64,000 nt of DNA, from assembly GCA_008501735.1 (NCBI GenBank), contig QQUF01000009.1:20862-84861 (forward strand), given 5' to 3'. Of the stretch, positions 38,398-58,004 are shown piece by piece. A program made the translations under genes and the position numbers. Positions within the stretch are counted from its first letter, which is position 1. Each line of letters opens with the position of its first letter. This stretch comes from Calditrichota bacterium (lineage in GTDB: Bacteria; CLD3). The notes below the pieces were generated by a model that worked only from the letters and a program-made list of their open reading frames with translations, made no database searches and was not told where the DNA came from.

Positions 38398-40527
38398 TTA
38401 GTCGCAGATTAGTTTACAGACAGAGTAAATTTTCACTTTTGAGTTTGGAGGTGGAACTTGCTTTTTGACGAAACCGTTGCCGACCAAAGCGAAGTCAATC
38501 TGCTCTAAAGCCAAGCGGTTTACGGCTTCTCTCACAGAAAGTCCGACAACTGAAGGAACTTCTCGCAAGTCATTTTCAGGAGGTTTTTCTTGGGCAAGTT
38601 TAACTTCAACGAAAGATTGTTTTTCTAAATCACCACCTGCTTCGGGGATTTGTTCAACAACGATTTTACCAACACCCGAAAATTTAATTTCTAAGCCGAT
38701 TTGGTTGAGCTTATGTTTTGCATCGTCAAGATTCATTCCTTTTAAATCAGGAACGTCGATTTCAGGTAAAACTTTTTTTGAGAATTTCTCGCCTGACTCA
38801 AGTGCAAGGTCGATTTGGTAGTTTGCACCTCGCAAAAGTCGAATAATTCGTTCAGTGATTCTTTTGAAAGTTGGACCGGAAATGTAGCCTCCCCAATAAT
38901 TTCCCTTTTTCGGAGTGTCAATCATTACGAGGCAAACAATTTGTGGATTTTCAAGCGGATAAATTCCAACGAAAGAAGCAAGGTAATCTCTTTGTGAATA
39001 ACCTCCTTCTTCTCCAGGTCTTTGAGCTGTTCCTGTTTTTCCACCGACTCTAAGACCTTTTACAGCTGCTTGTTCGGCAGTTCCACCTTCTTGCACAACT
39101 CCTTCAAGAAATGGAATCATCTTTTCGGCTGTTTCTTCTGAAACGACTCTTCTTACAAAAACAGATTCCTTTCGTTCAAGCATTTCCATTTGGTCGTTTA
39201 AAACAGCTTTAACAATCATTGGCTTCATTAATTTTCCACCGTTTGCTATCGCACAATAAGCATTTGCAGTTTGTAAAGCTGTAACTGCGACTTCGTGCCC
39301 GATTGAAATTTCAGCCCTTGAAATTCCAGACCAATCAAGTGGGTTTTTCAAAATCCCTTTAACTTCACCAATCAGCTCGATGTCTGTTTCTGTTCCAAAG
39401 CCAAAAGCTCTTGCGTAACGAAATAACTCACTGTTTCCAAGTGAATCGGCAACTTTGATTACACCAACGTTACTTGATTTTGCAAAAACATCTTTGAAGG
39501 AAAGCCAGCCATATTTTTTAGAATCTTTAATTGTTGTTCTATAAATTTTAATTTTCCCATTTTCGCAAAAAATAGAATCATCAGGCGAAATAATTCCATT
39601 GTTCAAAGCTCCAGCTGCTGTAACAAGTTTAAAAGTCGAACCCGGTTCATAAATGTCTGTTATTGCTTTATTCTTTCTTGCACTTGGGTCGTAATTTAGT
39701 GTCGTATTTGGGTCGTAAAACGGATAACTAGCCATTGCTAAAATCGCACTATTCTTAGGGTTCATCAGAACTACAACTCCACCTTTTGCTTCTGAATCAA
39801 TTACAGTTTTGCTAAGCTCTTCTTGAACAATCGCTTGCATTTCGCCGTCAATTGTAAGGACAATATTTTTTCCATCAACAGCTTGTTTTTGCGGATACTC
39901 TAACGAAGGTAAACTTCTTCCCCAACCGTCAGCTTGTTCAACTAAAAATCCTTCACGTCCATTTAATAAAGTATTGAAGTTTTTTTCAATGCCATTTTGC
40001 CCATTGTTCTCAGAGTTTGTGTAACCGAGAATCTGAGCAGCTAATTCATTTCTTGGGTAATACCTTTTCGGATTCTTGTGGGTAAAGACATTTTTATTTT
40101 TCGCCTCAATTAGTTTTTTCGCTAAGTCTTCCTCAATGTCTTTTTCGAGCCAAACGAATTGTTTTTTAGATTGAAGTTTATTTTGGTAAAAACTTTTGGG
40201 TTTATTGAAAGTTTCAGCAAGAAGATTTAGAAGAATTTCTTTTTCTTTGTTTTTTTTTCTTAGTGAATGCGGATTTGCTGAAAAGGAATATTTGATTTTA
40301 TTAGTTGCGAGAATTTTGAGGTTTCTGTCGTAAATCGAACCTCGAATAGGATAGAGAATCTTTTTAGATTTGTGTTGCCTTTCGGCGAGATTTTCGTAGT
40401 AACCTTTGTCTTTGACTTGGATTGTAAAAAGTTTGCCCAAAATTATAAGGGCAAAAATTAATCCGAAAAGAATTATAGAATTAATTCTTTTCTTACAACG
40501 TCTCTCGTGAGCTTGGATTTCTTCCAT
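38398..40527 (-). CDS. ftsI: Division peptidoglycan transpeptidase (PBP2/FtsI class) with two PASTA domains
   Basis: 709 residues. One N-terminal transmembrane anchor (about 16-36), the PBP dimer domain (RGSIYDRNLKILATN), then the transpeptidase with active Ser297 (EPGSTFK), the SSN motif (AKSSNVGVI) and KTGTAQRPGEEGG. Two PASTA domains follow (about 585-645 and 650-709: VPDLKGMNLDDAKHKL and VPSVVGLSVREAVNRL). This fits the FtsI/SpoVD-type PBP of the division complex, which cross-links septal peptidoglycan. The rsmH-ftsL order upstream supports that. The next gene after ftsI is dprA rather than murE. Confidence 0.93.
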   Translation of the reverse strand: MEEIQAHERRCKKRINSIILFGLIFALIILGKLFTIQVKDKGYYENLAERQHKSKKILYPIRGSIYDRNLKILATNKIKYSFSANPHSLRKKNKEKEILLNLLAETFNKPKSFYQNKLQSKKQFVWLEKDIEEDLAKKLIEAKNKNVFTHKNPKRYYPRNELAAQILGYTNSENNGQNGIEKNFNTLLNGREGFLVEQADGWGRSLPSLEYPQKQAVDGKNIVLTIDGEMQAIVQEELSKTVIDSEAKGGVVVLMNPKNSAILAMASYPFYDPNTTLNYDPSARKNKAITDIYEPGSTFKLVTAAGALNNGIISPDDSIFCENGKIKIYRTTIKDSKKYGWLSFKDVFAKSSNVGVIKVADSLGNSELFRYARAFGFGTETDIELIGEVKGILKNPLDWSGISRAEISIGHEVAVTALQTANAYCAIANGGKLMKPMIVKAVLNDQMEMLERKESVFVRRVVSEETAEKMIPFLEGVVQEGGTAEQAAVKGLRVGGKTGTAQRPGEEGGYSQRDYLASFVGIYPLENPQIVCLVMIDTPKKGNYWGGYISGPTFKRITERIIRLLRGANYQIDLALESGEKFSKKVLPEIDVPDLKGMNLDDAKHKLNQIGLEIKFSGVGKIVVEQIPEAGGDLEKQSFVEVKLAQEKPPENDLREVPSVVGLSVREAVNRLALEQIDFALVGNGFVKKQVPPPNSKVKIYSVCKLICD

Positions 40528-40565
40528 TTAAAAATTTTCCAAAAACTCAGAAAAATTAGATGAGT

Positions 40566-40958
40566 TTAATTATTTGATGCTTGAGCAGTTTCTGTACTAA
40601 TTTGAAAATCAAACGTTTCTTCATCTTGGTGAATTTCCTTACGCAATGTTCGTTTTTCGTCCTTGAAAAAACAATCAGCACTAACAACGATTTTTTGTGG
40701 TTCTTTTGTATCAAAGACCAAACCGTGTTTCTCTTGAGCGATTTTGCCAAGTACTTCAAAACTTGCAAAAGAAGCAAATTCAGCATTAAGTCTTGAGTTC
40801 TCTTTAACTAAATTTTCTTTAGTTTTTTTCAGAGACCTGTTTGCAAAAGCTAATTTGTTACAATAATTTTGTTGGAACAAAAATGCAAGCACCAAGACAA
40901 CGCCAATACCTGAAACGACGAAAGTCTTGAAAGAATTTTTTGGATGTAAGTTATTCAC
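40566..40958 (-). CDS. ftsL: FtsL-like cell-division protein
   Basis: 130 residues from GTG, with GGGGAG about 9 bases before it. One transmembrane span (about 12-30) is followed by a leucine/heptad-rich coiled coil (LKKTKENLVKENSRLNAEF) and a polar, acidic tail. Sequence identity is low, as usual for FtsL, so the name relies on size, topology and place between rsmH and ftsI. FtsL helps recruit and activate the septal synthase with FtsB/FtsQ. Confidence 0.78.
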   Translation of the reverse strand: MNNLHPKNSFKTFVVSGIGVVLVLAFLFQQNYCNKLAFANRSLKKTKENLVKENSRLNAEFASFASFEVLGKIAQEKHGLVFDTKEPQKIVVSADCFFKDEKRTLRKEIHQDEETFDFQISTETAQASNN

Positions 40959-41015
40959 TATGTTTTACTCCCCCTCAGAAGTTCATTTTTGTGAAATTTA
41001 ACTGAGCTTTTCTTA

Positions 41016-41933
41016 CTAAATTTTTTCTGCAATTCTCAATTTTGCACTTCTTGCTCGAGAATTAATGTCAATTTCTTCTTGAGCAGGCATAATTGGTTTT
41101 TTTGTTAAAATATTAACTGTTGAAACTTTATCACAAGTGCAAATCGGCATTTTAGGCGGACAAACGCAATCCATTTTCTCGTGCCTAAAAAACTCTTTTA
41201 CAATTCTGTCTTCTAATGAGTGATAAGAAATCACTCCGATTCTTCCACCTTTAGCCAAAAGTCCAATTGCACTTCCCAATGCAATTCTTAGGCTTTCAAG
41301 TTCTTGGTTCACTTCAATTCTAAGAGCTTGAAAAATTCGAGCTAAAGTTTTTGTTAAAAATCTGCCACCACTTACTTGAGAAATGACTTCAACAAGTTGT
41401 GAGGTGGTTTCAATTAACTTTTCCTTTCTGACTTGAAAAATATGACCTGAGATTTTCCAAGCATTTTTTTCTTCACCAAATTCTCTGAAAATTTTTGTTA
41501 AATCTTCACGTGAGTAAGAATTAACAATGTCTTTTGCACTTAAAGTTAGATTTTTATCCATTCGCATATCAAGTTCAGCATCTTTTTGGAAACTGAATCC
41601 TCTCTCAGCATTATCAATCTGAAAAGATGAAACACCTAAATCCAAAAGGATTCCCAAAAGAGGTTGAGCGTTGTGTTGAAGTGCAAATGAAGTCATTTCT
41701 TTGAAGTTTCCTTCACAAAAAGTGAAACGGTTTTCAGGAAATTTATTTTTGTTTTCAATTAATGCATCTTTGTCGCAATCAATTCCCAAAACTTTAATTT
41801 GAGGGAACTTTTCTAAAATTGCTCTTGTGTGACCTCCACCTCCTAAAGTTCCGTCAATAAAGTAGCCTTCTTTTTCCGAAGGTATAAAATTTAGAACTTC
41901 ATTGAGAAGAACAGAAATGTGGTAATTTTTCAA
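41016..41933 (-). CDS. rsmH: 16S rRNA m4C1402 methyltransferase RsmH
   Basis: 305 residues from TTG (41933), with no clear ribosome-binding site. The opening HISVLLNEVL and IDGTLGGGGHTRAIL are RsmH hallmarks; GILLDLGVSSFQIDNAERGFSF, ARIFQALRIEVNQEL and GVISYHSLEDRIVK follow. It methylates N4 of C1402 in 16S rRNA using S-adenosylmethionine. It heads the rsmH-ftsL-ftsI set; no mraZ precedes it in the window. Confidence 0.96.
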   Translation of the reverse strand: MKNYHISVLLNEVLNFIPSEKEGYFIDGTLGGGGHTRAILEKFPQIKVLGIDCDKDALIENKNKFPENRFTFCEGNFKEMTSFALQHNAQPLLGILLDLGVSSFQIDNAERGFSFQKDAELDMRMDKNLTLSAKDIVNSYSREDLTKIFREFGEEKNAWKISGHIFQVRKEKLIETTSQLVEVISQVSGGRFLTKTLARIFQALRIEVNQELESLRIALGSAIGLLAKGGRIGVISYHSLEDRIVKEFFRHEKMDCVCPPKMPICTCDKVSTVNILTKKPIMPAQEEIDINSRARSAKLRIAEKI

Positions 41934-42029
41934 ATTTTTTATTTTTGTAAAAGGTCAAAAGAAAGAGCCATTTGGCTAATTCTAAGAAGAAATGTGACGT
42001 ATGTCAAATAAAAAATTAATTTCGGAAAG

Positions 42030-42063
42030 CCCAAAAAATTATCTTTAAAGATAATTTTTTGGG
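42030..42063. repeat. Perfect 34-bp palindrome in divergent region
   Basis: CCCAAAAAATTATCTTT (42030-42046) is immediately followed by its exact complement (42047-42063), giving a 34-base palindrome with no spacer. It lies in the 409-base region between rsmH (minus) and the signalling island (plus). It is too AT-rich and lacks a tail for a normal terminator, so a DNA-level role or a hairpin in RNA is possible. Confidence 0.6.
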
Positions 42064-42069
42064 TAAAGG

Positions 42070-42114
42070 CACTAAATATTGTGTGCTTTGTGTGATTTGT
42101 GTCAATATTTAGTG
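42070..42114. repeat. 12-bp inverted repeat flanking a TGTG-rich spacer
   Basis: CACTAAATATTG (42070-42081) and CAATATTTAGTG (42103-42114) are exact complements around a 21-base spacer rich in TGTG. It is placed upstream of the receiver-PP2C gene and is a candidate operator. Together with the 34-bp palindrome and a third repeat at 42173-42229 (AAACGTAAAA facing TTTTACGTTT), this divergent region is unusually rich in symmetry. Confidence 0.5.
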
Positions 42115-42342
42115 AGTTTTAAAACTTGAGCTACTCATAATTTTATTGAAGAAAAATTAACTTTTTTTCTGTAAACGTAAAATGTTAGGGCTTTCTCTTA
42201 AGAAATTACTTTAAGTGATTTTTACGTTTGTCGAAGTTAAGTTCAAACTCGTCAAAAAAAAGTTTCTTTTTTTTTATTTTTGTTTAGATTTTACGAATTG
42301 TTTAATTCCCAAAATAACAAAACTCACAATCGAAGGAAAAAT

Positions 42343-43536
42343 ATGCGCATCCTAATTGCTGATGATGATTTTGATGTCAGATTACTTTTATCAAGAACTG
42401 TTCAAAAATGGGGACACGAAGTCTTAACTGCTGAAGATGGTGCGGAAGCTTTAGAGCTAATTAAAAGTGAAAATATTACTTTTGTAATTAGTGATTGGAT
42501 GATGCCGAATATGGACGGTTTGGAACTTTGCAGAAATATTCGCGAACTTGATGAAGCAAATTCTGGCTATACTTATGTGATTCTTCTTACGGCTAAAGAA
42601 TCGAAAACTGAATTGATTCAAGGAATGGATGCAGGAGCTGATGATTTTGTAACTAAACCTTTTGATAAAGACGTTTTAAAAGTACGAGTTAGAGCCGGTG
42701 AAAGAATTCTTGAGTTAAAAGAAAATCTTGATGAAAAGAATAAAAAACTTACAGCTGCTTTACAAACAATCGAAAAGGATTTGGTTTCCGCAGCAAAAAT
42801 GCAAAAAGGCTTACTTGCACCAACCCCTTCGACACTTTCAAACGTTAGGTTTGATTCAATTTACATTCAGTGTAGTTTCGTTTCTGGAGACATTTACAAC
42901 TTTTTCCAATTCGACGAAGACCACATTGGGTTTTATTTACTTGATGTTGCAGGACACGGAATTCCGTCTGCTATGCAATCAGTAACTTTGAGTCGAGCTG
43001 TAAATCCGCTTCCTGAACAAACAAGCCTTTTAAAAAGATACATTTCTGAACTTTCAAAATATGAAGTTGTAAACCCTGCTCTTGCTGTCAGTCGTTTGAA
43101 CGAGCAGTTTCAAGCAGACGAAGATACAATGCTTTACTTTACAATGGTTTATGGAATTATTAATACAAAAACAGGTTTGACAAAATTAACTCAAGCTGGT
43201 CATCCATCACCGATTTTTGTCCACAACGACGGAGGAGTAAAGTTCATCGGTGATGGAGGTTTTCCTGTTGGAATGTTGCCAGGAGTCGAATTTGATGAAC
43301 ACGAATTATACCTTCATAAAGGTGATAGACTTTTCCTTTATTCTGATGGTGTAACTGAATGTACTGGCGAAAATAATGAACTTTTTTCAGAGGAAAGGCT
43401 GCTTCAAACTCTTCAAGAAGAAAGGCACTCTCCTTTAAAAGATACTTTAGCAACACTTGAAGACTCTTTACGACTTTGGCATAATCAACCTGAATTTGAA
43501 GATGATGTAACTTTGCTAGCTATCGAAATTATCTGA
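42343..43536 (+). CDS. Receiver-PP2C (SpoIIE-type) phosphatase response regulator
   Basis: 397 residues from the ATG at 42343 with a GAAGGA before it. The receiver domain (about 1-120) has the acidic pocket ADDD, phosphoacceptor Asp51 ([13 protein letters not shown]) and [10 protein letters not shown] coiled coil (about 122-150) leads to the PP2C/SpoIIE phosphatase domain (about 160-397) with metal-site motifs [30 protein letters not shown] and EDDVTLLAI. The family dephosphorylates phospho-STAS proteins to switch a partner-switching pathway. A STAS protein and an RsbW-like kinase close this same gene set, which makes them probable partners. Phosphorylation by one of the hybrid kinases is inferred. 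Confidence 0.92.
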
Positions 43537-43573
43537 TTCTAACTTTAAAATTTCCTTAGGTTCATCAATTACA

Positions 43574-46228
43574 ATGAAAACGAATGAACTAAAATACACT
43601 GTTTACGGCTTTGCTTTTGGACTACTTTTTCCAATTATCGCAACTTTAATTGAGGCGTTAGTTAGTTTCGGAAGTTTGGGAATTAGTGCAATTTGGCAAT
43701 CTCAAATGACCCAACCACTTCTTTGGATAATTGACACTGCACCATTTGTTTTGGCTTTCTTTTCAAGAATTGCAGGAAAGCAACACGACGAACTTGAAAA
43801 GTCAATTATTCGCCTAAAGCACGTTACAGTTTCGAGAGATGAATTAGCACAAGAAGTCGCAGAACGTAAAAAAGTTGAGGCTTTATTACAAAATGCAAAA
43901 GAAGAAGCCGAGTCTGCGAACATTGCAAAAAGTGAATTTCTTGCAAATATGAGCCACGAAATCCGAACTCCAATGAATGCAATTATTGGAATGACGGAGC
44001 TTACTTTAGACACTCAATTAAAAGATGAACAAAGAAATTTTCTTAGAGTCGTGCATTCTTCGTCTGAAGCACTTTTGAGGGTAATTAATGATATTCTAGA
44101 TTTTTCAAAAATCGAAGCAGGTTTGATGGAAGTCGAATCAGTTCCATTTTCAGTAAGAGATGTTGTTGAACAAGTTGGTGAAATTCTCGGAATTCGTGCA
44201 AGCGATAAAAATTTAGAGCTAATAAGTTACGTCCAACCTGAAATTCCTATTAATGTTGAAGGCGACTCGACAAGACTAAATCAAGTTTTGATGAACCTTG
44301 TTGGTAATGCGATTAAGTTCACAGAAACAGGCGAAGTCGTAATGAAAGTTGAAAAGAAAGAGTTAATTGTCAACGAGGAAGATGGAAGTCAAAAAGTGAG
44401 GTTACTTTTTTCAGTTTCGGATACAGGAATTGGAATTACTCACACACAACAGAAAAAAATCTTTGAGAAATTTTCTCAAGAAGATTCTTCAACAACTCGT
44501 CAGTACGGTGGCACAGGACTTGGGTTGACAATTTCAAAATCTATCGTTGAACTTATGGACGGGAGAATTTGGTTAGAAAGTGAAAAAGGGAAAGGTAGTA
44601 ATTTTCTTTTTGAAATTGACTTTCCTTTCAAACCATCTGAAGAAAATATTACAGAATTTGCTTATCCTGATTTCAAAAATATTTCGGTCTTGGTAGTTGA
44701 TGACAATAAAACAAACCGTTTCATTCTAAACAATGTTCTTAATTCTTGGGGATTTACTGTTGCAGAAGTTCCGAGTGGACAAGAAGCAATCGATCATTTA
44801 AAGAATCCTGAAAATAAAGTTGATTTAGTTGTCTTAGATCACCAAATGCCTGGAATGGATGGAGTTCAAGTTGCTTACTCAATTCGTAATGATATGAATT
44901 TGAAAGACTTAAAAATTGTGATGCTTTCTTCTTGGGGAGGACTTTTACAGAAAGACAAAATTGCTTTGGATTTGGCAGATTCTGTAAGTAAACCAATAAA
45001 GCAATCTGTTTTGTTTGAAGTTTTGATGAAGGGATTGAGGTTTGAAAAAGCTACAGTTCAAACTCAGGAAACCGAAGTTCAAGTCAAAAAAGAAAAACGT
45101 AAAATTGTAAACCGTCAACATATTAGAATACTCTTAGTTGAAGACAATATTGACAATCAAAATTTAGCGAAGAAAATTTTGGAGAAAGCGGGTTTTTCAG
45201 TTGACGTTGCTAACAATGGTCAAATTGCTCACGAAGCAGTGAAGAGATTTTCTTTTGATTTGATTTTGATGGATATTCAAATGCCTGTAATGGGAGGCTT
45301 TGAAGCAACTACAGAAATTCGTAAATGGGAAAAAGAGACCAAGCACGCAAGAATTCCAATTGTTGCTTTGACTGCTCACGCTTTGGAAGGATATAGAGAA
45401 AAATGCCTTGAAAATGATATGGACGATTACATCACTAAACCTCTAAAAAGAAAAGATTTAATAAAAATTATTGACAATTGGGTTGACACAAGACCAATAA
45501 TTTTTATTGTTGATGATTTGGAAGAAAACAGACTTTTAATTGAAAGCTATTTGAAAAAAGACGGCTCTTACAAAATTTTAATGGCTGAAAATGGTAAGCA
45601 AGCTGTTTCATTATTTTTGCAAAAACCTGTTTCTCTGATTTTAATGGATATGGAAATGCCAGTTAAAAATGGTTATGAGGCTGCGAAGACGATTCGTGCT
45701 TTAGGAACAGGGAAAACGATTCCCATTGTAGCAATGACTGCTCATCAAGGTGCAGAGGAAATTAAAAAATGTATTGATTCAGGTTGTTCAGATTATATTC
45801 CAAAACCTATTCGAAGAAAAGATTTGTTTGAAATAATTGAAAAGAATTTGTTTCAAGAGAAACCTTCTTCAAAAACAGGTAAAGATTCTTCGAGAAAATT
45901 TCACCAAAATGAAATTGATGTTTACGTCGAAGGTGAACTTACAGAGTTAACGCCTAAGTTTTTACATAACCAATTTCTTAACGTTGACACAATTAAAAAG
46001 CTACTCGTAAGTAAAAGTTATCAAGAAATTAAAAAGATTGGTTTGACAATGCGTAACTCTGGTAGTGTTTACGGTTTTAATGAAATTAGCATTCTTGGAA
46101 AGGAAATTGAAAAGGCATCGGAAGATAACAATAGCGAAAAAATTGAGGTCTTAACAAACGGCTTAGTTGAATATTTACACCGCGTTAAAATTTATGATTC
46201 GGATAAAAAACTAATTTCTTTTGAATAA
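43574..46228 (+). CDS. Membrane hybrid histidine kinase with three receivers and a histidine-less HPt
   Basis: 884 residues. Two transmembrane segments (about 10-35 and 45-65), a coiled-coil linker, then HisKA with His128 ([17 protein letters not shown]) and HATPase ([21 protein letters not shown]). Three receivers follow in a row: Asp422 ([13 protein letters not shown]), Asp567 ([13 protein letters not shown]) and Asp692 ([13 protein letters not shown]). The last 90 residues align well with the free HPt protein at 50651, but the phosphoacceptor position reads IGLTMR instead of IGHSMK (Leu824). So this C-terminal domain cannot be an ordinary phosphotransfer site. It probably serves as a docking or regulatory domain. 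It follows the receiver-PP2C gene by 37 bases. Confidence 0.93.
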
Positions 46229-46347
46229 ATTTAAAAAAGTAGAATTTTTAATTACGGATTTCACGTTACATTAAAAAATAATGTTTGAATTTTTAGGTAA
46301 GTAATATCTTAGTAATAATTTTTATTTAAAATAAAGGAAGTGACAAA

Positions 46348-47496
46348 ATGAAACTTGAACAATTACTTTGGACAGAACAAAACGGTTGGCAAAACGAATC
46401 ACCTGAAAAAAGTGTTGAAAACCCACAACTTGTTCTTTACTTCGGAAGTACAGGGGTTTTGGAATCGGGAGAACGTTATGATGATTTAAAAAAACGTTAC
46501 CCAAATTCAAATTTAATCGGTTGTACGACTTCAGGTGAAATTATTGAAGAAGATGTTTTTGATGATTCAGTTGTAGTAACTGCTATGGAGTTTGCTTCAA
46601 CAAAAACTCAAATTGCCACTTTAAAAATAGGTGATGTCGAAAATTCAACAGAAGCAGGAAAGAAATTAGCAGAAGAATTAAATTCTGACGGATTAGCTGG
46701 AGTTATGGTGATTTCAGATGGAGGAATGGTAAATGGAAGTCAATTAGTTAAAGGGCTTTCAAGTATTTTAGGAACTGAAATTCCAATTACTGGTGGATTA
46801 GCAGGAGATGGAGCAAGGTTTCAGAAAACTTTAGTCGGTTTTAACAATAGACCTGAGCAAGGAAGAATTGTCGCTATCGGACTTTACGGAGATAAAATTA
46901 CAATTGGTCACGGTTCAGTTGGTGGTTGGGATACTTTCGGACCTGAAAGAGAAATCACTCGCTCAAAAGACAACGTGCTTTTTGAACTTGATGGTAAGCC
47001 TGCTTTAGAACTTTACAAACTTTATCTTGGTGAAGAAGCAGCAAACTTACCAGGAAGTGCTTTACTTTTCCCACTTTCTGTCAGACCAAAAGACAGCAAA
47101 GAACAGGGAGTTGTAAGAACAATTCTTACGATTGACGAAGAGCAGCAAAGTATGACTTTTGCAGGTGATTTGCCAGAAGGTTACTCTGCACAACTTATGA
47201 GAGCTAATTTTGAAAGACTCATTGACGGAGCAGAAGAAGCAGCAAAAATTGCAAATACCGAAAATGAAATTGACGGTGAAAAATTAGCAATTTTAATTAG
47301 TTGTGTTGGCAGAAAAATGGTCTTGGGACAAAGAACTCCTGACGAAGTAGAAGCTGTTCACGAACTACTTGGTGAAGATGTTGCACAAATTGGATTTTAT
47401 TCTTACGGAGAAATTTCTCCTCACGTTGAAATTTCAGGCAGTTGTGAACTTCACAATCAAACAATGACTATTACTTTGCTCTCGGAAAATGCATAA
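46348..47496 (+). CDS. FIST-domain sensor protein
   Basis: 382 residues with FIST_N (about 20-215: [38 protein letters not shown]) and FIST_C (about 215-365: [13 protein letters not shown], closing [11 protein letters not shown]). FIST is a predicted small-ligand sensory module found in signal transduction, often beside or within kinases. No other domain is present. Its last 8 bases overlap the start of the hybrid kinase at 47489, so the two should be made together and probably form one sensor complex. The ligand is unknown. A good AAGGAAG precedes the ATG. Confidence 0.93.
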
Positions 47497-50400
47497 ACTC
47501 CTTGAAAAACAATTAAAAAGAGCTTCCAAAAGAACCTCTGACGGCGAACCGAATTTGGAAAAGTTGCTTGAAATGATTTCGGCAACTTATGACGAAGCAG
47601 ACAAAGAACGTCGTCTTAGAGATCGCTCACTTTCTTTAATGTCTGATGAACTTTTAGGTTTAAACAGTAAGATTAAAGAACAGGGTGAAGCTCGAATTCA
47701 CGGAATAATGGATAACGTTGTTGATGGAATTCTAACTATTGATAGTCAAGGGAGAATTGAATCTTTCAATTCTTCAGCAGAAAGAATTTTTGGCTATTCC
47801 GCAAGTGAGATTTTGGGACAAAGTGTTACTTATTTATTTGAAAATATTAATAATGATTTTGAAAATTTTATAGAAAAGTATTTCAGTGACAAGGATTCCG
47901 AATCAACTAAAATTCGTGATGAAGCGACTGCACGTCGAAAGGATCTTTCTGTTTTCCCAAGTGACTTAGCTGTAAGTTCGATGACAGTTGGTGAAGAAAA
48001 ACTTTTCATTGCCACAGTGCGAGATATTACAGAACGTAAAAAAGCTGAAAATGAGCTTCTCAAAAGGGATATTTTACTTCAAGCTGCTTCACAAGCAACA
48101 AATTATTTACTTAGGGGAAAAGACCTTGAAAGTTCAATTAAACAAGTTCTTGAAACTTTGGGAAGAGCTACTTTTTCAGATAGAATTCACATTTTCCAAA
48201 ACTTGGAGTTGGAAGATGGAACTAAAGTTTATTCTCAAAGATATGAATGGACGGCATCTCACTCAAATTCATTAATCCACAGTCCGGAATCCAAACTTTT
48301 TACTTGGGGGAAATTTGGTCTTGAGCGTTGGTTTGATTTGTTCAGCCGTGGAGAAACCATTTCTTCAAAAGTGAAAGATCTTGAAGAGAAAGAGCAATTT
48401 ATTTTGAAGTCACAAGGAGTTCTTTCTTTTTTAAGTGCTCCAATTTTCGTAGGTGATAAATTTTGGGGATTTATTGGTTTTGATGATTGTCATTCTGAAA
48501 GAGAATGGTCAAAAAATGAGGAAGCAATTTTATTTTCGGCTTCTGCAAGTATTGGCGAAGCGATAGAACGACAGAAAGACAAAAATAATTTGATTGAAGC
48601 AGTAAATGCTGCTGAGCAAGCTAATGTTTCTAAAAGTGAATTTTTGGCAAATATGAGTCACGAAATCCGAACTCCACTTAATGCAATCATTGGAATGACG
48701 GAGTTAACTTTAGATACTGATTTAAATCGCGAACAAGATGGATTTCTGAAAGTTGTGCTTTCCTCTTCTGAAGCACTTTTACGAGTCATTAATGACATTC
48801 TTGATTTTTCAAAAATTGAAGCAGGGCAAATTGAATTAGAACACATTGGATTTAATATTCGCGAAGTTGCAGAGAGCGTTGCTGAGGTTTTAAGTGTTAA
48901 AGCAAATGAGAAGAAAGTCGAAATGATTTGTTTTGTCGAACAACAAATTTCGCCTTTTGTAGTCGGAGACCCTGATAGAATTAGACAAATTTTGATAAAC
49001 CTTGTTGGTAATGCTATAAAATTTACAACAATTGGTGAAGTTGTCATTAAAGTTGAAATGGAAAGTGTAGAAGAAAATCAAAATGGTAAAAAAATACAAC
49101 TTCACTTTACTGTCTCGGATACTGGAATTGGAATTGCACAAGAAAAAGTCGGTAAAATTTTTGAAAAGTTTGCACAAGAAGACAGTTCGACAACTAGAAG
49201 ATTTGGGGGAACTGGACTAGGGTTGAGTATTAGTAAACTTCTTGTCGAATTGATGGGCGGAACAATTTGGGTTGAAAGTGAAGAAGGAAAGGGAAGTAAA
49301 TTTCACTTTACTTTACCTTTTGAAATTTCTGAACAGCAACCTGAGAAAACCGAATTTATCTACCCAAGTTTTGAAAACTTTAATGTTTTGATAGTTGACG
49401 ATAATTCGACTAATCGTTTAATTCTTAGAAAAATGCTCCTTGCTTGGAATTTCAAAGTTGAAGAAGTTAGCAGTGGAAGAGATGCACTCAATTTACTTCA
49501 AGCAAAGCAAATTGATTTGGTAATTCTTGACCACCAAATGCCTGGAATGGATGGAGTTCAAGTAGCTGAACTAATTTCACATAACCCGAAATTAAGTAAA
49601 ACAAAAATGATAATGCTTTCTTCTTGGGGTGGAATAAAAATTGAAATTGCAAGAAAGTATGGAATCTCTCATTCAATTACAAAGCCTGTCAAACAATCAA
49701 ATTTATATAATATTTTGCTTGAGGTTTTTAGGCTTAAAAAATCAATTGTTGATGAAAAACAAAACCGTTTAATCACTGAAACAAGTTTGAAAAACAAACC
49801 TAAGATTTTACTAGTTGAAGACAATCCAGATAATCAGAATTTGGCAAAAAATATTTTGACAAGAGCTGGTTACGAGGTTTCAATTGCAGATGATGGTAAA
49901 ATTGGCTACGAAAAATTTATGGCTTTCCAATATGATTTGGTTTTAATGGATATTCAAATGCCTATTATGGATGGATTTGAAGCAACCAAAGCAATTCGTG
50001 ATTTCGAGAGGAAAGAACAATTAGAACGCATTCCAATTGTTGCCTTTACAGCACACGCAGTTACTGGTTATTATGAAAAATGTCTTGAAAATGATATGGA
50101 CGATTATATCACTAAACCTTTGAAAAGAAAGACTTTTTTGCAAAAAATTGACAGTTGGATTGATAGAAGACCAAAAATTTTAATAGCTGATGATTCGGTT
50201 GACAATCAAAAATTATTCAAGATTTATACTAAAAAATTAGAAGATTTCAGATTTATATTTGTTACGAATGGGCAACAGGCTTTAGATGAGTTTAATCGTC
50301 AAAGTATTTCATTAATTTTAATGGATATGGAAATGCCAGTTATGGATGGATACACAGCAACTACAAAAATTCGTGAGCTAGAAAATGGTAGTAAAGTTCC

Positions 50401-50575
50401 AATTATCGCTTTGACTGCTCATCACGGAACTGAAGCTGTAAAAAAATGTTTGAGTGCTGGCTGTAATGACCACCTTGGAAAACCGATTAGGAAACAGAAA
50501 TTAATTGAATTAATCAAGAGTTACTTTGAAAGTGGTGAAAATGCCAAGACTGATGAAAGTAAAAAAATTGCTTGA
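47489..50575 (+). CDS. Soluble PAS-GAF hybrid histidine kinase with three receivers
   Basis: 1028 residues, no transmembrane span. A charged N-terminal helix (about 1-70, resembling the linker that follows FIST proteins), a PAS domain (about 72-185: [20 protein letters not shown]), a GAF domain (about 205-365), HisKA with His391 ([10 protein letters not shown]), HATPase ([21 protein letters not shown]) and three receivers with Asp681 ([10 protein letters not shown]), Asp821 ([11 protein letters not shown]) and Asp946 ([11 protein letters not shown]). All phosphotransfer residues look intact. It is coupled by an 8-base overlap with the FIST gene and is followed, after 75 bases, by a free HPt protein, its most likely partner. 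Confidence 0.93.
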
Positions 50576-50650
50576 GTTAAAAATGCTTTTTCTTAATTTA
50601 TCAAAGTTGGCATTTATAAATTAAGATTGAAAATTTGAGGTTTTAAAATA

Positions 50651-50965
50651 ATGAGCGAACAAATTGTTGTTTACGTTGATGAAGATTTAGAAGACTTGGT
50701 TCCAGGGTTCTTAGAAAACCGAAATGAAGATATTGATTCAATTAAACAGTTGATTCAAGATGGAAATTTTCCAGATGTTCAAAGAATTGGACACAGTATG
50801 AAAGGTTCTGGTGGAGGTTATGGATTCGACAAAATTAGTGAAATAGGAAAGGGGATCGAAGAATTTGCCAAATCAGAAAGCAAAGATGAAATCCTAAAAC
50901 TTGTAAATGATTTAGCACATTACTTGTCTGTTATCAAAATTGAATTCATCGAAAGTGAATGGTAA
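50651..50965 (+). CDS. Stand-alone HPt phosphotransfer protein
   Basis: 104 residues, essentially only an HPt four-helix bundle. The phosphoacceptor is His48 in VQRIGHSMKGSGGGYGF, with the small-residue pattern that leaves room for the imidazole. An N-terminal extension (IVVYVDEDLEDLVPGFLENR) is shared with the degenerate domain at the end of the kinase at 43574, so the two are paralogous. It is the only HPt with a His in the island and can connect the kinases' receivers to downstream receivers such as the receiver-PP2C protein. Confidence 0.9.
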   Translation: MSEQIVVYVDEDLEDLVPGFLENRNEDIDSIKQLIQDGNFPDVQRIGHSMKGSGGGYGFDKISEIGKGIEEFAKSESKDEILKLVNDLAHYLSVIKIEFIESEW

Positions 50966-51007
50966 AATTTTAATTTCAAATCGGGATTAATAAATTCAGG
51001 TAATTTT

Positions 51008-53650
51008 ATGACTCAAGAAAACCCAAAATCTAATCAGAATATTCTTGAGTTTGAAGAATCTATCGCTCTTAGTTCCGAAGAAGTAACTCGCAGAAATGAA
51101 AAACGAAAATATTTTGTAAACGTAAAAAGAGTTCCTCTTCTTAGAGTTTTTGGCTTCATTTGTATTGCAATTTTCGTTTATCTTCACAACACTTTTATTC
51201 TCAAATCTTTTTCCCTATCAGACTACTTGCTTTTGCTTGGAATTTCCTTTTCCTACTCATTCATCTCTTGGGGAGTTCTTTATCTTTTTTATGAAAAAGT
51301 TAAATTTTTTGATTTGGGAATTTTCTTTTTAAGCCTTGATATTTTCTTCTTCACTTTACCTGTTTATTTTTCTGGTGGAACGGAAAGTTGGCTTTTTATT
51401 CTTTTAATAATTAGGGTTGCTGACCAAACTAATACGACTTTTAAAAGAGTACTTTTGTTTTCTCACCTTTGTACGATTTCCTATTTAGGAATGTTAGTTT
51501 ACATCGAAAATGTTGACAATACCCCTGTGGATTGGAGTGTCGAATTAATAAAAGCACTTTGCATTTACCTTTCTAATATTTACATCTCATTAACTGCACA
51601 AACTGCCGAAAAATTAAGAATGAAAACAGTTAAATCAATCGAAACGGCTAAAGGTTTGATTTTTAAATTAAGTGAGAAGACAGAAGAGTTAAAAGAAGCT
51701 CAAGAAGAAGCTGAAAACTTAAGCCAAGCTAAAAGTGAATTTTTGGCGAATATGTCTCACGAGATTCGTACTCCAATGAATGCAATTATTGGAATGACGG
51801 AATTGACTTTGGAAACGGAACTTTCTGTTGAACAAAAAAGATTCCTTGATACAGTTAAGTCTTCAACCAATTCTCTACTTAAAATTGTTGATGACATTTT
51901 AGATTTCTCAAAAATTGAAGTCGGGCAAATTGACCTTGAAGAAATTCATTTCAAAATTATCGAAGTAATCGAGGAAGTATCAGAAAGTTTTGCTCAAAAA
52001 GCTTACATAAAAGGCATTGAATTAATTCATTTTGTTGATTCAGAAGTTCCGCAAACTCTTAAAGGTGACCCTTTAAGACTCAAACAAATTCTAATTAATT
52101 TGCTAAGTAATGCCGTAAAATTCACAGAAAAAGGTGAGATTTTTGTAAAGGTTGAAGTTAATTCTTTTGACCAAGAAGCAAAAAATGTGGACTTACTTTT
52201 CACAATTTCAGACACTGGAGTTGGGATTTCCGATGAAAAGAAAGTTACAATTTTTGAAAAATTTTCTCAAGCTGATTCATCTACAACAAGAAAATACGGT
52301 GGAACAGGTTTAGGGCTTTCGATTTCAAAATCTCTAATTGAATTGATGGGTGGAAAAATTTGGGTTGAAAGTGAAGAGGAAAAAGGTAGTAAGTTTTTCT
52401 TTACCTCAAAGTTTAATCTTTCTGATTTAAAATCAAGTTCTTCAAATTCAGACAACCTTCAAGGTGATTACTCAAAAATCAAAGTATTAGTCGTTGACGA
52501 TAATGAGACGAATCGGTTCATTTTAAAATATGCTTTGAAAAGTTGGAAGTTTGAAGTTAAAGAAGCAGAAAATGGAAAAATTGCTTACAATTTGTTGAAA
52601 AAAGAAGAATTTCATCTTTTATTACTTGACCACCAAATGCCAGAAATGAGTGGAATTGATTTGGCGAAAGAAATACGTTTGAAGCTGAAAAATGACAGCC
52701 TTCAAATTTTAATGCTTTCTTCAGATATGAGAATCGAACCTAAGGTTTTCAAGAGTTTGAATATCTTTGAACTTCTTAACAAACCTGTCAAACGTGAAAA
52801 ATTAGAAAATAGTCTGAAACTTGTCATTGATGAGATTTTACATCAGAAGAAAGAAGTTGTAAAGCCAAAAGTAAAATTGCGTTCCAAAAAAGTGAGGCAC
52901 AGAATTCTTCTTGTTGAAGATAGTTTGGACAACCAAAAATTAGCAAAAATCATTTTGAAAAAAGCAGGTTACTTTGTTGATATTGCTGATAACGGTGAAA
53001 TTGCGGTGAAAATGTTTGGGAAAAATGAATATGATTTGATTTTGATGGACATTCAAATGCCTGTGATGGACGGATTTGATGCAACTCGTAAAATTCGTGA
53101 AAATGAGCAATTAAACAGACTTGAACGGGTTCCAATAATTGCATTAACAGCCCACGCAATGGCTGGTTATCGCGAAAAATGTATTGCAAATGGAATGGAC
53201 GATTACGTTACAAAACCAATAAATAAAAAGTTTCTGATGACAAAAATTATAGAATGGATTGATTTTAGACCATTAATTTTGATTGGGAATTTGCCAAGTG
53301 AAATTAATAAAAAGATTACGTCTGAACTTAGTGGCGAAAATTTTAGAGTTTGTAATTTAGAAAGTCAAAATGAGATTTTGAATAAATTTGAAAGAGCTGC
53401 GGTCTCTGCTTTGATTTTAGATTTTGAAGAGGTTAAAAAAGATGATTTTGCTTTAATTTTCAAAATTCGTGAAAACAAAGAGTTTACTTCAATTCCAATT
53501 TTGATTTATTCAAAAGAGGAAATAATTCTCGATGATTTTGAAAAGAACGGTTTGGATTTGAGAGAAAGAATTTTATGTTTAGCAGACTTAAGTAAGATTT
53601 TAGAAAAATTAAATTTTGCTTTGGAAATTACAATCGCAGAAAAACCTTAG
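51008..53650 (+). CDS. Membrane hybrid histidine kinase with a degenerate third receiver
   Basis: 880 residues. A cytoplasmic start (about 1-40) precedes about six transmembrane segments (about 42-195), then a coiled coil, HisKA with His251 ([10 protein letters not shown]), HATPase ([21 protein letters not shown]), receiver 1 (Asp541, [10 protein letters not shown]) and receiver 2 (Asp681, [11 protein letters not shown]). The third receiver position (about 755-875) is degenerate. It keeps an Asp805 (LILDFEE), but the acidic pair of the first strand is replaced by ILIGNLP, and the conserved Lys is not apparent. So it is probably a pseudo-receiver with a structural role. The multi-span membrane sensor is of a kind I cannot name. 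Confidence 0.92.
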
Positions 53651-53709
53651 TTACAAAATGGATTTTTGTCAGAGCAAATGTGTAAAAACTCTATCTAGGA
53701 GAAAAATTT

Positions 53710-54048
53710 ATGAAATTTGAAGAAATCAAAGACGAAGATATTTGGATTTTAAAATTTTTGGAAGACAGGTTTGACTCAATGTCAGTTTCAGATTTTAAGG
53801 AAAAAATCACTGCGGAAGTTGAAAATGGTAATAATAAAATTTTACTCAATTTAAATTACGTTGATTTTGTCGATAGTAGTGGCTTAGCGGCCTTGGTTTA
53901 TTGTTTTAAGATTATTGGAGCAGGAGGAAAATTTGGCATTTGTCAACCAAAAGATACTGTAATGAGTATGTTAAAATTGACACGAATGGATAGAGTTTTC
54001 AAGATTTATGAAAGTGAAGAGCAAGCAATTTCTGATTTTAAAAAATAA
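53710..54048 (+). CDS. STAS-domain anti-anti-sigma factor
   Basis: 112 residues, a single STAS domain. The phosphorylation loop reads NYVDFVDSSGLAALV, with the Ser in the normal place for SpoIIAA/RsbV-type proteins, and the rest (GAGGKFGICQPKDTV, LKLTRMDRVFKIY) is standard. It is expected to bind the RsbW-like kinase encoded next when unphosphorylated, and to be the substrate of the PP2C phosphatase at 42343. No sigma-factor gene is present in the window. TAGGAG lies before the ATG. Confidence 0.92.
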   Translation: MKFEEIKDEDIWILKFLEDRFDSMSVSDFKEKITAEVENGNNKILLNLNYVDFVDSSGLAALVYCFKIIGAGGKFGICQPKDTVMSMLKLTRMDRVFKIYESEEQAISDFKK

Positions 54049-54161
54049 TTAACAAAATAGTTGTAAAAATTTTTTTGAATAACAAAATTAAAATTGTAAT
54101 TTACTTAGAAGCTGATTTACGATAGAAATTTGAAATCCCAAAACTTTTGGAGAAATTTCTT

Positions 54162-54599
54162 TTGAAAGAAAGAAAGATAAAATTTACAGTTGATAGCAAT
54201 TTGGAAGATGTAGCGTTGATTGGAACATCTGTTAATAGATTGTGTACAACTATGAACTTATCTGATGTTGAAGCTTATAACATTGAACTTTGTGTTGTTG
54301 AAGCGGCAAATAATTGTGTAAAACATGCATATAACTTTCAAGGTGGTAGCGAAGTTGAAGTTGTTTTTACATTTTTTAACGGCGAAATTAAAATTGAAAT
54401 TTGTGACAGAGGGCAGACAATGCAAAGAAAGTCAGAAACTCCAACTTTAGAGTTTGATCCTGACGATATGGAATCATTACCTGAAAGTGGAATGGGACTT
54501 TACATAATCAGCGAAGTAATGGATAAAATGGAGTACGCAACTTCAGAGGGTAAAAATATTTTAACAATGATTAAAAAGATTGCTCCTGTAACCTTATAA
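54162..54599 (+). CDS. RsbW/SpoIIAB-like ATP-binding anti-sigma kinase
   Basis: 145 residues from a TTG at 54162, chosen because GGAG lies 8 bases before it; an in-frame TTG at 54147 overlaps that signal. A HATPase_c_2 fold is seen: N-box NIELCVVEAANNCVKHAY, G1-like CDRGQTM and G2-like ESGMGLYIISEVMDKMEY. Such proteins phosphorylate a STAS antagonist and bind a sigma factor or another output protein. It completes a PP2C-STAS-kinase partner-switching set with genes at 42343 and 53710. The regulated output is not encoded in the window. Confidence 0.9.
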   Translation: MKERKIKFTVDSNLEDVALIGTSVNRLCTTMNLSDVEAYNIELCVVEAANNCVKHAYNFQGGSEVEVVFTFFNGEIKIEICDRGQTMQRKSETPTLEFDPDDMESLPESGMGLYIISEVMDKMEYATSEGKNILTMIKKIAPVTL

Positions 54600-54678
54600 T
54601 TATTGTTCTAAAAACCAAAAAGTCATCTATAAAAATTTAACTCACTTTAATATTTAATCAAATTTTGGAAACAAAGTA

Positions 54679-55194
54679 ATGAAAAGAATGAAAACAATTA
54701 CAATCGGGTTATTAATGCTCTTAGCTTCATTTGCATTTGCAGATAATATCCTTGTAGAAGTTCACGAAGCTAAAGAAGGTAAAAAGCTCTACTACAGAGT
54801 CGGAACTATGGGAACAAGTTCTGTTGATGTTGTTTGGGGAACAGCTACTGAATACACTAGCGGAAAAAGTCCTAAAGTAGCAATGAGTGGAGAATATGTA
54901 GTTATTATCCACCAAGGTTACAATAACGAAGATTTATATTGCACAGTAGGTGTTATTAACGCTGCAAACAAATCAATTGATTTAGGACAGCCAGCTCGAT
55001 TTATCAAAAAAGGTGCTAGACCTTCAATTGCACTTAAAGGAAAAGATGTTGTTGTAACTTACCAAAAAGTAGGTTCTGAGTCTTTACTTTATATGGTTGG
55101 ATCTCTTGAGCCTGAAAACAGAAAAATCGTTTTTGCTGCTGAGAAAAAATACGAAAGTGGAAACAGACCAGCTGTTGCAATGGAAGCAAAATAA
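54679..55194 (+). CDS. Short secreted protein of three beta-propeller-like repeats
   Basis: 171 residues with a signal peptide (about 1-21, ending AFAD). The mature protein is two and a half copies of a roughly 48-residue unit: LYYRVGTM...VAMSGEYVVIIHQG, LYCTVGVI...IALKGKDVVVTYQ and LLYMVGSL...VAMEAK, where the last stops before its final strand. The unit resembles a blade of a sugar-binding or sialidase-type beta-propeller, too few to close a ring in one chain, so oligomers or truncation are implied. Function unknown. It sits at the 3' end of the signalling island and may be its output or a separate gene. A strong terminator follows. Confidence 0.78.
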   Translation: MKRMKTITIGLLMLLASFAFADNILVEVHEAKEGKKLYYRVGTMGTSSVDVVWGTATEYTSGKSPKVAMSGEYVVIIHQGYNNEDLYCTVGVINAANKSIDLGQPARFIKKGARPSIALKGKDVVVTYQKVGSESLLYMVGSLEPENRKIVFAAEKKYESGNRPAVAMEAK

Positions 55195-55215
55195 GAATAA
55201 AATGATTTTTATTTT

Positions 55216-55250
55216 AAAGCCTCAAAGGAAATTCCTTTGAGGCTTTTTTT
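55216..55250. terminator. Strong bidirectional terminator
   Basis: AAAGCCTCAAAGG (55216-55228) pairs with CCTTTGAGGCTTT (55234-55246) over a 5-base loop, followed by a run of Ts on the plus strand and a matching A-rich flank on the other. It ends the signalling-island end gene and lies directly after the stop of the convergent arginine deiminase gene. Confidence 0.85.
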
Positions 55251-56544
55251 ATGCTCTAATTATTGGGCAAGTAAGACATCTTGGTCCGCCTCTTCCTCTC
55301 GAAAGTTCGTAACCAAATATCGTAATTGCCATCTTTCTACTAAAATCATTTAAGAATAAATCGGCATTTCTTACAAACTCATCTGATGAAATTACTTCAT
55401 AGCCAACTTTGTTTAGTTCTTTCAAGGTATGTTTATTTCTCTCATACATTAATATTTTCCCAGGTGCAATAGCAAAAGCATTTGCTCCGTCAGACCATTG
55501 TTCACGAGCTTGGTGAATTGGGTTTGAGCCACCACAAATGATTGGATTAAGGTGTAAATTATCTTGCTCTAAAACACGAATTAAATTTGAACCAACGGGA
55601 TTCTTATGTTCAAATTTCTTTTCATCAGAAGTAAAACGGTAAATGTTTAAGTGTAAATCATCAGTTCCCTCTGCAAGAATAATTGGAGAAAAAGTTAAAC
55701 ATTCATCTATGTTTGTTCTTGTGAAAATTGTATCTAAATGCATAGTTGCACGTTTCTTGGGCATATCAACTGCATAAATCACTTCAAAACCTTGTGCAAA
55801 AATTTGAGGAGCTAAATGTTTTACGACATCAAATCTTGTTCTTTCACTAATTCCGATTAAAACAATTTTGTCAGAAATGACTAAAATATCACCGCCTTCA
55901 ACAGTCAATTTTTTCTCTGTTCCTTGAAGGTCAATAATTTCACATTCTGCAAAAGCTTTGTGGTTCTGAATAATTGTTCGGCTTAAAAGCATATCTCTTT
56001 TACGTGCATTTTCACTTGCATAACTAAGTACAAACGCATTTCCAACTGCAGCAACTAAGTCTCTTGCAAACATTGTGTTAGGAAGTGGCCAATTCAAGAC
56101 TTTCTCGTAATTATTAGGTAAGTAACCACTCATAAGAACGAAAGAAAGCTCGTGTGGGTCAAGATTGTTTTGCATTAATTTTTTATGCTTATCAGAAACT
56201 TTCCAACCGTAAGATTTTTCTTGGTTTACGATTTTATCAATGAGTTCGATTTTGACTTTTTCATAGTGTAAAACTCCTTCGAGGAGTTGAGTAAAATCAT
56301 AAACATTTTCATAGCCACAAGTTGCAACCAAAACATCTTTCAAATGTGCGTGGTCTTGTTGCATTCTCGAAAGCAAAACTATGTCATCAAAAAGCAAGTA
56401 ATCTGGGTTTGCAATAATTTGCCCGTCTTTTTCGATGTACTCAGCAACATTATTTGGTTCTACAAAATTATGTTCACGTCCAGGACTGTGAATCATAATT
56501 TTTTGTAAACGGCTGATTTCTGAGAAAATATTTACTTTATGCAT
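55249..56544 (-). CDS. arcA: Arginine deiminase
   Basis: 431 residues. Landmarks are RLQKIMIHSPGREHNFVEP, the FARD motif (MFARDLVAAV), TVEGGDILVISDKIVLIGISERT, the catalytic His in MHLDTIFT and the catalytic Cys near the end in RGGPRCLTCPI. The enzyme converts arginine to citrulline and ammonia, the first step of the arginine deiminase pathway or of acid/ammonia physiology. No arcB, arcC or transporter is adjacent; instead it follows murE by 5 bases, an unusual partnership. A length of 431 is slightly longer than the usual roughly 410. Confidence 0.93.
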   Translation of the reverse strand: MHKVNIFSEISRLQKIMIHSPGREHNFVEPNNVAEYIEKDGQIIANPDYLLFDDIVLLSRMQQDHAHLKDVLVATCGYENVYDFTQLLEGVLHYEKVKIELIDKIVNQEKSYGWKVSDKHKKLMQNNLDPHELSFVLMSGYLPNNYEKVLNWPLPNTMFARDLVAAVGNAFVLSYASENARKRDMLLSRTIIQNHKAFAECEIIDLQGTEKKLTVEGGDILVISDKIVLIGISERTRFDVVKHLAPQIFAQGFEVIYAVDMPKKRATMHLDTIFTRTNIDECLTFSPIILAEGTDDLHLNIYRFTSDEKKFEHKNPVGSNLIRVLEQDNLHLNPIICGGSNPIHQAREQWSDGANAFAIAPGKILMYERNKHTLKELNKVGYEVISSDEFVRNADLFLNDFSRKMAITIFGYELSRGRGGPRCLTCPIIRA

Positions 56545-56549
56545 TATTT

Positions 56550-58004
56550 TTAATTCCTTTCAAATGCTTTTCTAATTTCTTCCCTGTCATCGAAATGAGA
56601 TTTTTCTCTTCCGATGATTTGGTAAGTTTCGTGTCCTTTGCCTGCAACAATTAAAACATCTCCCAAATTTAATATTTTAACTCCAAATCCAATTGCTTCT
56701 TTTCGGTTTGGAATCACTTGGTAAGAATTTGCTTCAAGTCCTTTGACGATATTTTCGATAATTCCTAATGGATTTTCCGTCCTCGGATTGTCAGAAGTAA
56801 TGATTACTTTGTCTGCTAATTCTGTTGCAATTTTTCCCATCAAAGGTCTTTTCTCTTTGTCTCTATCTCCTCCGCAACCAAACACGAGAATAATTTTTCC
56901 ATTTGTAACTTCTCGAACAGAAAGAATTATCTTTTCTAGAGCATCAGGAGTGTGGGCATAATCTACAATTGCAGTTAGTTTATTTTTGCGAATAATTTCG
57001 AAACGCCCTTCGACTGTTTGGACTTTTTCAAGTGATTCAATAATTATTCTTTTGTTGAGTTGTAAGGTGAAGATTGTAAGTAAAGAAGCTAAAGTATTAC
57101 TTAGATTGAATTTTCCCAATAAATTTGTTCTAACATTATAGTTCGAATCGTCAAAAACCAATTTGAAACTTGTTCCTCCCAAATCAAATTTTGGACTTGA
57201 GGCTGTCAAATCTGCCTTAGGACTTTGCCCATAAGTAAAAGTTTTTGCTTTAGTAACTTTTCTAAAAAAATTAGAATTTATGTCATCTTCATTCAAAATT
57301 GCAAAAGAATCTTCTGATAAATTTTCAAATAAAATGGCTTTAGCTTCACGATAATTTTCCATTGTTTTATGAAAATCAAGGTGGTCTTGAGTGAGATTTG
57401 TAAAAACTCCAATCTTGAAATTTAGCCCAAAAACTCTGTCCATTGAAAGTGAGTGTGAAGAAACTTCCATAATTACAACTTTTACGTCCTCACAAACCAT
57501 TTTAGCAAAAAGTTGGTGAAGTTCCAAAGATTCAGGAGTTGTGTGAGATGCTTCTAACTTTTCTTCTCCGATGTAGTAACCTGTTGTTCCGACCAAGCCT
57601 GTTTTCACCTCCATCGAATCCAAAAGTGATTTAAGAATGAAAGAGGTTGTTGTCTTTCCATTCGTTCCAGTAATTCCAATTAATGTGAGTTTCTCGGCAG
57701 GATTTCCATAAAAAGCAGAAGATAGTAGGGCTAAAACCTTGCGAGATTGTTTGACTTTGAGAACTGTAATTCCTTTGGGAACTTCTACTTCATCTTCAAG
57801 AATTATTACCGAAGCACCTTTTTGAATTGCTTGGCAAATGAAAATGTGACCGTCTGTTTGGAAACCTTTTATCGCAACAAAAAGCGAATCATTTACAACG
57901 GTTCGTGAGTCGTAATGAATGCTTGAAATTGCAGGTTCAAGTTCACCCTGCAAAAGTTCAAATTCAATATTTTTGAGAAGTTCTTTAAGAAGCAAATTAG
58001 ACAA
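56550..58004 (-). CDS. murE: UDP-MurNAc-L-Ala-D-Glu:meso-DAP ligase MurE
   Basis: 484 residues from TTG (58004), overlapping the cyclase-like gene by 8 bases; a TTG 9 bases downstream is an alternative. The N-terminal domain (SIHYDSRTVVNDSLFVAIKG) precedes the ATP-binding P-loop GITGTNGKTTTSF and the helix TTPESLELHQLF. NPRTENP with the preceding Asp (DNPR) is the motif that selects meso-diaminopimelate over lysine, then GKGHETYQ. It adds the third residue to the peptidoglycan stem. It lies away from the ftsI-rsmH cluster, so the division/cell-wall cluster is split here. Confidence 0.96.
   Translation of the reverse strand: MSNLLLKELLKNIEFELLQGELEPAISSIHYDSRTVVNDSLFVAIKGFQTDGHIFICQAIQKGASVIILEDEVEVPKGITVLKVKQSRKVLALLSSAFYGNPAEKLTLIGITGTNGKTTTSFILKSLLDSMEVKTGLVGTTGYYIGEEKLEASHTTPESLELHQLFAKMVCEDVKVVIMEVSSHSLSMDRVFGLNFKIGVFTNLTQDHLDFHKTMENYREAKAILFENLSEDSFAILNEDDINSNFFRKVTKAKTFTYGQSPKADLTASSPKFDLGGTSFKLVFDDSNYNVRTNLLGKFNLSNTLASLLTIFTLQLNKRIIIESLEKVQTVEGRFEIIRKNKLTAIVDYAHTPDALEKIILSVREVTNGKIILVFGCGGDRDKEKRPLMGKIATELADKVIITSDNPRTENPLGIIENIVKGLEANSYQVIPNRKEAIGFGVKILNLGDVLIVAGKGHETYQIIGREKSHFDDREEIRKAFERN

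Follow-up and report, generated by a model that had tools for sequence, protein, structure and literature searches.

We identified, in a window of 64,000 nucleotides (nt) from contig QQUF01000009.1 of a Calditrichota bacterium (GTDB lineage CLD3), eight co-directional plus-strand open reading frames (ORFs) at 42343-54599 that probably form a self-contained island linking a phosphorelay to a partner switch. In this scheme three hybrid kinases would pass phosphate to an HPt protein and from there to a receiver-PP2C (REC-PP2C) phosphatase, which would act on a STAS protein that interacts with an RsbW-like partner. Domains of all eight proteins were assigned by Pfam, and the genes and the two degenerate domains within them are as follows.

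42343..43536, plus strand: REC-PP2C (SpoIIE-type) response regulator, 397 amino acids (aa); Pfam Response_reg (99.7 bits) and SpoIIE (151.6 bits)
43574..46228, plus strand: hybrid kinase HK1; membrane segment, HisKA, HATPase_c, three receivers and a C-terminal decayed HPt (Pfam; alignment with the orthologue in the sister genus, G001)
45911..46192, plus strand: decayed HPt of HK1; IGLTMRNSG, His lost, no Pfam Hpt match
46348..47496, plus strand: soluble FIST_N/FIST_C protein; Pfam FIST and FIST_C (168 and 130 bits)
47489..50575, plus strand: hybrid kinase HK2; PAS, GAF, HisKA, HATPase_c and three receivers (Pfam); its first 8 nt lie within the FIST gene
50651..50965, plus strand: stand-alone intact HPt, 104 aa; Pfam Hpt (32.9 bits)
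51008..53650, plus strand: hybrid kinase HK3; multi-pass membrane N-terminus, HisKA, HATPase_c, two intact receivers and one degenerate receiver (Pfam, alignment)
53300..53647, plus strand: third receiver of HK3, degenerate; lacks the acid pair and the Lys and is not counted by Pfam
53710..54048, plus strand: STAS anti-sigma-antagonist-like protein; Pfam STAS, DSSG motif with predicted phospho-site Ser57
54147..54599, plus strand: RsbW/SpoIIAB-like protein; Pfam HATPase_c_2, with N, G1 and G2 boxes intact

ORFs and Pfam domains agree with the eight plus-strand signalling genes of the initial annotation. It had assigned three tandem receivers to each kinase, which holds for HK1 and HK2 but not for HK3, in which the third is degenerate and Pfam counts two. 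The dead HPt that it had described on one kinase is the tail of HK1, where the His is indeed lost.

The grouping of these eight genes is not a chance co-location, because a genome of a sister genus (G001) keeps the eight-gene order despite different upstream neighbours. In the search for relatives, G001 was the sole other genome from the family; seven came from the same class and the others share only the domain, the class being thinly sampled. Conserved synteny, which the initial annotation had suggested as a check, was found in G001, where all eight genes occur in the order and orientation seen in the window. Identities to the window proteins are 69% for REC-PP2C, 55% for HK1, 69-70% for the FIST protein, 57% for HK2, 62% for HPt, 45% for HK3, and 54% each for STAS and RsbW. 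The genes lie on three contigs. The first (C182) carries REC-PP2C, HK1, FIST and HK2 and then ends. On the second (C203) are two hybrid kinases, one with CHASE4 and one with HAMP-GAF, and the start of CheR. The third (C188) encodes, on its minus strand, the cut CheR, CheB, a kinase with one receiver before and three after its kinase core (REC-HK-REC3) and a 2090-aa propeller-PAS-GAF kinase, followed by HPt, HK3, STAS, a nucleotidyltransferase and the RsbW-like gene. Between C182 and C203 the shared stretch is 153 nt long and has 4 mismatches; it spans the end of HK2 and the following spacer. C203 and C188 share an exact 31-nt overlap inside cheR; no direct overlap between C182 and C188 was found, and they are joined only through C203. 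The joined run, which is built from contig overlaps and not from an assembly, is collinear over about 30 kb and holds seven hybrid kinases plus CheR, CheB and the nucleotidyltransferase.

The extra kinases of G001 sit between HK2 and HPt, a placement that fits a many-to-one funnel. Upstream of REC-PP2C lie mraW-ftsL-ftsI in the window versus a copper P-type ATPase and a deoxynucleoside kinase-like gene in G001 (the comparison concerns this side, as C188 ends 482 nt beyond the RsbW gene). Thus, what keeps the block together is not its genomic surroundings. Seven of the nine inner branches of a kinase-core tree are unresolved, so the orthology of HK1-HK3 between the two genera is drawn from gene order and best matches.

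The catalytic motifs expected of both halves of the system are present. In the REC-PP2C protein, the receiver Asp and Lys and the PP2C motifs GD, DVAGHG, SDG and DD align in the window and in G001. Its nearest solved structure is 3eq2, a probable two-component response regulator of P. aeruginosa, and its nearest NCBIfam model is RssB of Pseudomonas, whose cut-off is not reached (152 bits vs 700). These features make the protein a candidate for both the relay end point and the STAS phosphatase. The STAS protein passes TIGR00377 for anti-sigma factor antagonists (58.3 bits, cut-off 53.45). The RsbW-like protein has a solved relative in RsbW (6m36/6m37) and fails the curated RsbW/SpoIIAB equivalogs (60-71 vs 145-155 bits; 53.8 vs 135 bits). 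A self-built RsbW profile also matched kinase HATPase domains, and earlier self-built STAS and RsbW profiles matched the window copy only.

In the three island kinases the H, N, G1 and G2 motifs are intact, as is the Asp of every receiver other than the third of HK3. That third receiver is intact in G001, and the N-terminus of HK3 is conserved between the two genera. The HPt of HK1 reads IGHSMKGSG in G001, where Pfam matches it, as do both stand-alone island HPts, versus IGLTMRNSG in the window. Its decay is thus specific to the lineage of the window, or to this genome, and without the His, HK1 of the window would need an HPt in trans. The longer motif IGHSMKGSGG is common to the stand-alone island HPt and the HPt of HK1, and is absent from the other HPts of both genomes. 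The remaining three stand-alone HPts adjoin REC proteins with LytTR-like sequence (LytTR recognized by eye). The island's stand-alone HPt is presumed to be the common relay node. Further three-receiver kinases are encoded on contigs C12 and C44 of this genome, so those of the island are part of a larger family.

The closest functional parallel is the HptB-HsbR-HsbA network of P. aeruginosa. There the kinases PA1611, ErcS' and SagS signal through HptB to HsbR, a REC-PP2C-kinase protein, and on to the STAS protein HsbA (PMC5085249; PMC6482189); phosphorylated HsbR is a phosphatase on HsbA (PMC5085249; PMC6482189). The FIST protein NosP inhibits NahK (ErcS', PA1976), whose phosphate goes to HptB (PMC11784011). 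Like the island, this network has more than one hybrid kinase, with a FIST partner encoded next to one of them, as well as a single stand-alone HPt, a REC-PP2C protein, a STAS protein and a SpoIIAB/RsbW-type kinase module (recognized in the island from sequence). The two differ in that HsbR combines REC, PP2C and kinase on one chain, whereas the REC-PP2C protein of the island has no HATPase and the RsbW-like protein is encoded separately at the opposite end. Thus, this is not an HsbR orthologue system, although it may work like HptB-HsbR-HsbA. The genetic arrangement also differs, since P. aeruginosa has an hptB-hsbR-hsbA operon with scattered kinases and here the sensors are encoded inside the block. 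Nor do the kinases of that network resemble those of the island in having three receivers each (the third being degenerate in HK3).

Based on the published HptB-HsbR-HsbA and NosP-NahK-HptB work (PMC5085249, PMC6482189, PMC11784011), we infer each phosphotransfer, along with its sign, and also the client of the switch by analogy. HK2 (with the FIST protein) and the membrane kinases HK1 and HK3 would each autophosphorylate and pass phosphate via their own receivers to one dedicated HPt. This HPt would phosphorylate the receiver of REC-PP2C, thereby setting its phosphatase activity; as for HsbR, the phosphorylated form is expected to be the active STAS phosphatase. The RsbW-like kinase would phosphorylate STAS and REC-PP2C would reverse this. 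Unphosphorylated STAS would then bind the RsbW-like protein, freeing the client of the latter, perhaps a sigma factor. A flow from kinases to HPt, REC-PP2C, STAS and RsbW, as the initial annotation had it, is plausible on these grounds.

Other characterized systems match parts of this scheme. In the LuxU relay of Vibrio cholerae, CqsS, LuxPQ, VpsS and CqsR feed one HPt, and the FIST protein VpsV is encoded just 5' of VpsS (PMC4398556). The likeness lies in several kinases converging on one HPt and a FIST gene upstream of a kinase; however, the output is the transcription regulator LuxO with no partner switch, and the genes are not in one block. CrsR-CrsA of Shewanella, RsbU/RsbV/RsbW and SpoIIE/SpoIIAA/SpoIIAB share PP2C, STAS and HATPase_c_2 modules with intact motifs. 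Unlike those switches, the input of the island is proposed to be a receiver fed by a multi-kinase relay.

Several observations weigh against the proposed relay and switch. The whole island was found in two genomes only (within the searches with the FIST query), too few for a covariation test. In G001 a nucleotidyltransferase gene stands between STAS and RsbW, which is unexpected for a dedicated switch. The end points of phosphotransfer could be the kinases' own receivers. Sigma-70 region 2 was found in 12 proteins of the genome, two long ones being RpoD-like (285 aa) and the rest known by region 2 only, and no SigB/SigF/FliA-type sigma factor is among the classified proteins. Apart from these points, the genome encodes two more PP2C-STAS-RsbW sets (C32, C17) and one more REC-PP2C (C24), and a second member of the island STAS subfamily adjoins metH in both genera (L144 379-723; L145 6570-6908). 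With the window STAS, the latter proteins share 43% and 41% identity, and a metH-adjacent STAS is possibly a second antagonist, or a second partner of the RsbW-like protein. Given the further switch sets and the additional REC-PP2C, specificity inside the cell cannot be assumed.

A sizeable minority possibility is that the RsbW-like protein has a role other than that of an anti-sigma factor and that STAS itself is the output, binding a non-sigma target in the way that phospho-HsbA binds the diguanylate cyclase HsbD (PMC5085249). The unreached curated RsbW models, and the absence of a SigB/SigF/FliA-type sigma factor among the classified proteins, are in line with this. Its membership of the RsbW/SpoIIAB fold family and its motifs are nevertheless clear, and an RpoD-like or extracytoplasmic function (ECF) sigma factor could be the client, given that in Shewanella the partner of CrsR is RpoS, which is RpoD-like (PMC6482189). 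This alternative bears on the output alone and can hold together with the relay to partner switch proposed above.

It is unlikely that the locus holds two adjacent but separate systems, in which the kinases, FIST protein and HPt serve a regulator elsewhere and another kinase drives REC-PP2C, STAS and RsbW. Each half does occur alone. Compact clusters in other phyla (L147, with the order HK-REC-PP2C-RsbW-STAS, and L146) have the adjoining switch parts and one nearby histidine kinase, but neither FIST nor HPt, and Larkinella loci (L052, L063-L065) have FIST-HK, HPt and REC without a switch. However, the REC-PP2C gene and those for STAS and RsbW flank the kinases and HPt in both genera, and independent systems would be expected to separate rather than interleave. 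More improbable still is an HPt that chiefly drains phosphate or mediates cross-talk between kinases while one kinase phosphorylates REC-PP2C directly: several receivers per kinase recall branched relays and the L147 kinase adjoins REC-PP2C without an HPt, but all three window kinases are hybrids, a type that as a rule depends on an HPt for onward phosphotransfer, and the HPt is kept in both genera.

Beyond the relay and switch themselves, the evidence is about evenly balanced on whether the locus is a relocatable, many-sensor integrator whose core is fixed (REC-PP2C at the start, HPt, and STAS and RsbW at the end), whose set of sensor kinases can expand (three versus seven plus CheR/CheB) and which has the FIST subfamily as one input.

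The FIST protein is the only one in this genome and is presumed to be an input for HK2, with whose gene its own is co-oriented and adjoining. Its predicted fold (predicted local distance difference test, pLDDT, 89.2) matches the FIST structures of FBXO22. A FIST gene directly before a kinase gene recalls NosP/NosK pairs (PMC12570481), but both proteins score well below the models (73.9 vs 450 bits for the NosP equivalog NF041558; 199.6 vs 400 for the kinase C-terminus). Membership of NosP was therefore rejected by score, and the resemblance, like any nitric oxide sensing, is one of analogy only. The FIST query was scanned against the contigs of the best 80 of 586 relatives, and 98 genomes were searched in addition; none was found at E <= 1e-10 in the seven same-class genomes. 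His369 is invariant in 83 relatives. Directly downstream of the FIST gene is a kinase-domain gene in 57 of 83 loci across phyla, a PAS-containing gene in 10 and a PP2C gene in 6. These last loci (L022, L024, L033, L047, L062, L073), labelled Flavobacteriales or Bacteroidetes, have a SpoIIE/PP2C gene of 328-349 aa next to FIST and no kinase. Thus, FIST and SpoIIE-type phosphatases associate independently of the island, possibly as direct pairs. In the four Larkinella loci (L052, L063, L064, L065), which belong to another phylum, FIST, a hybrid kinase, a stand-alone HPt and REC form a single run and so a smaller FIST relay.

The combination had been called undescribed by the initial annotation. 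This does not hold for the network logic, which is known in P. aeruginosa, FIST sensor included; it does for the single gene run with HPt, FIST and several kinases, of which no earlier description was found in the literature examined (one library, in which absence is not provable). What is new is the single island, the phosphatase and kinase split between genes, and the variable kinase number; the wiring logic is known. Most known networks in which several kinases share one HPt come from Pseudomonas and Vibrio; the kinases there are scattered, and the members were identified through years of genetics. Sensors, relay and switch in one block, in a poorly studied class, indicate which parts belong together and could be reconstituted as a set. 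Three versus seven kinases, and HPt decay in one lineage, suggest ways in which such funnels could gain and lose components.

Further features of the island and its margins are as follows.

42030-42063, no strand: perfect 34-nt palindrome in the divergent intergenic region 5' of the island
54679-55194, plus strand: 171-aa secreted protein, a ninth plus-strand ORF without Pfam match, 79 nt 3' of the RsbW-like gene and preceding the terminator-like site
55216-55246, plus strand: terminator-like hairpin (pattern match only), the sole such site in 41900-55400, where about 6.6 are expected by chance

Spacing between neighbouring island genes is -8 to 119 nt. These small gaps, and the single terminator-like site after the ninth gene, make it likely that the island is one transcription unit, of which the secreted protein is possibly the last gene. 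This protein contains repeated short motifs. Rfam and tRNA scans of the window gave no matches. The intergenic region with the palindrome holds a second inverted repeat (42065-42119). The flanking genes are all on the minus strand, with mraW-ftsL-ftsI (38398-41933) on one side and an arginine deiminase-like gene and murE (55249-58004) on the other, so the island interrupts an apparent cell-division gene cluster. Between murE and the S-adenosylhomocysteine (SAH) hydrolase gene, a short ORF (57997-58479) resembles, by eye only, a class III nucleotide cyclase domain.

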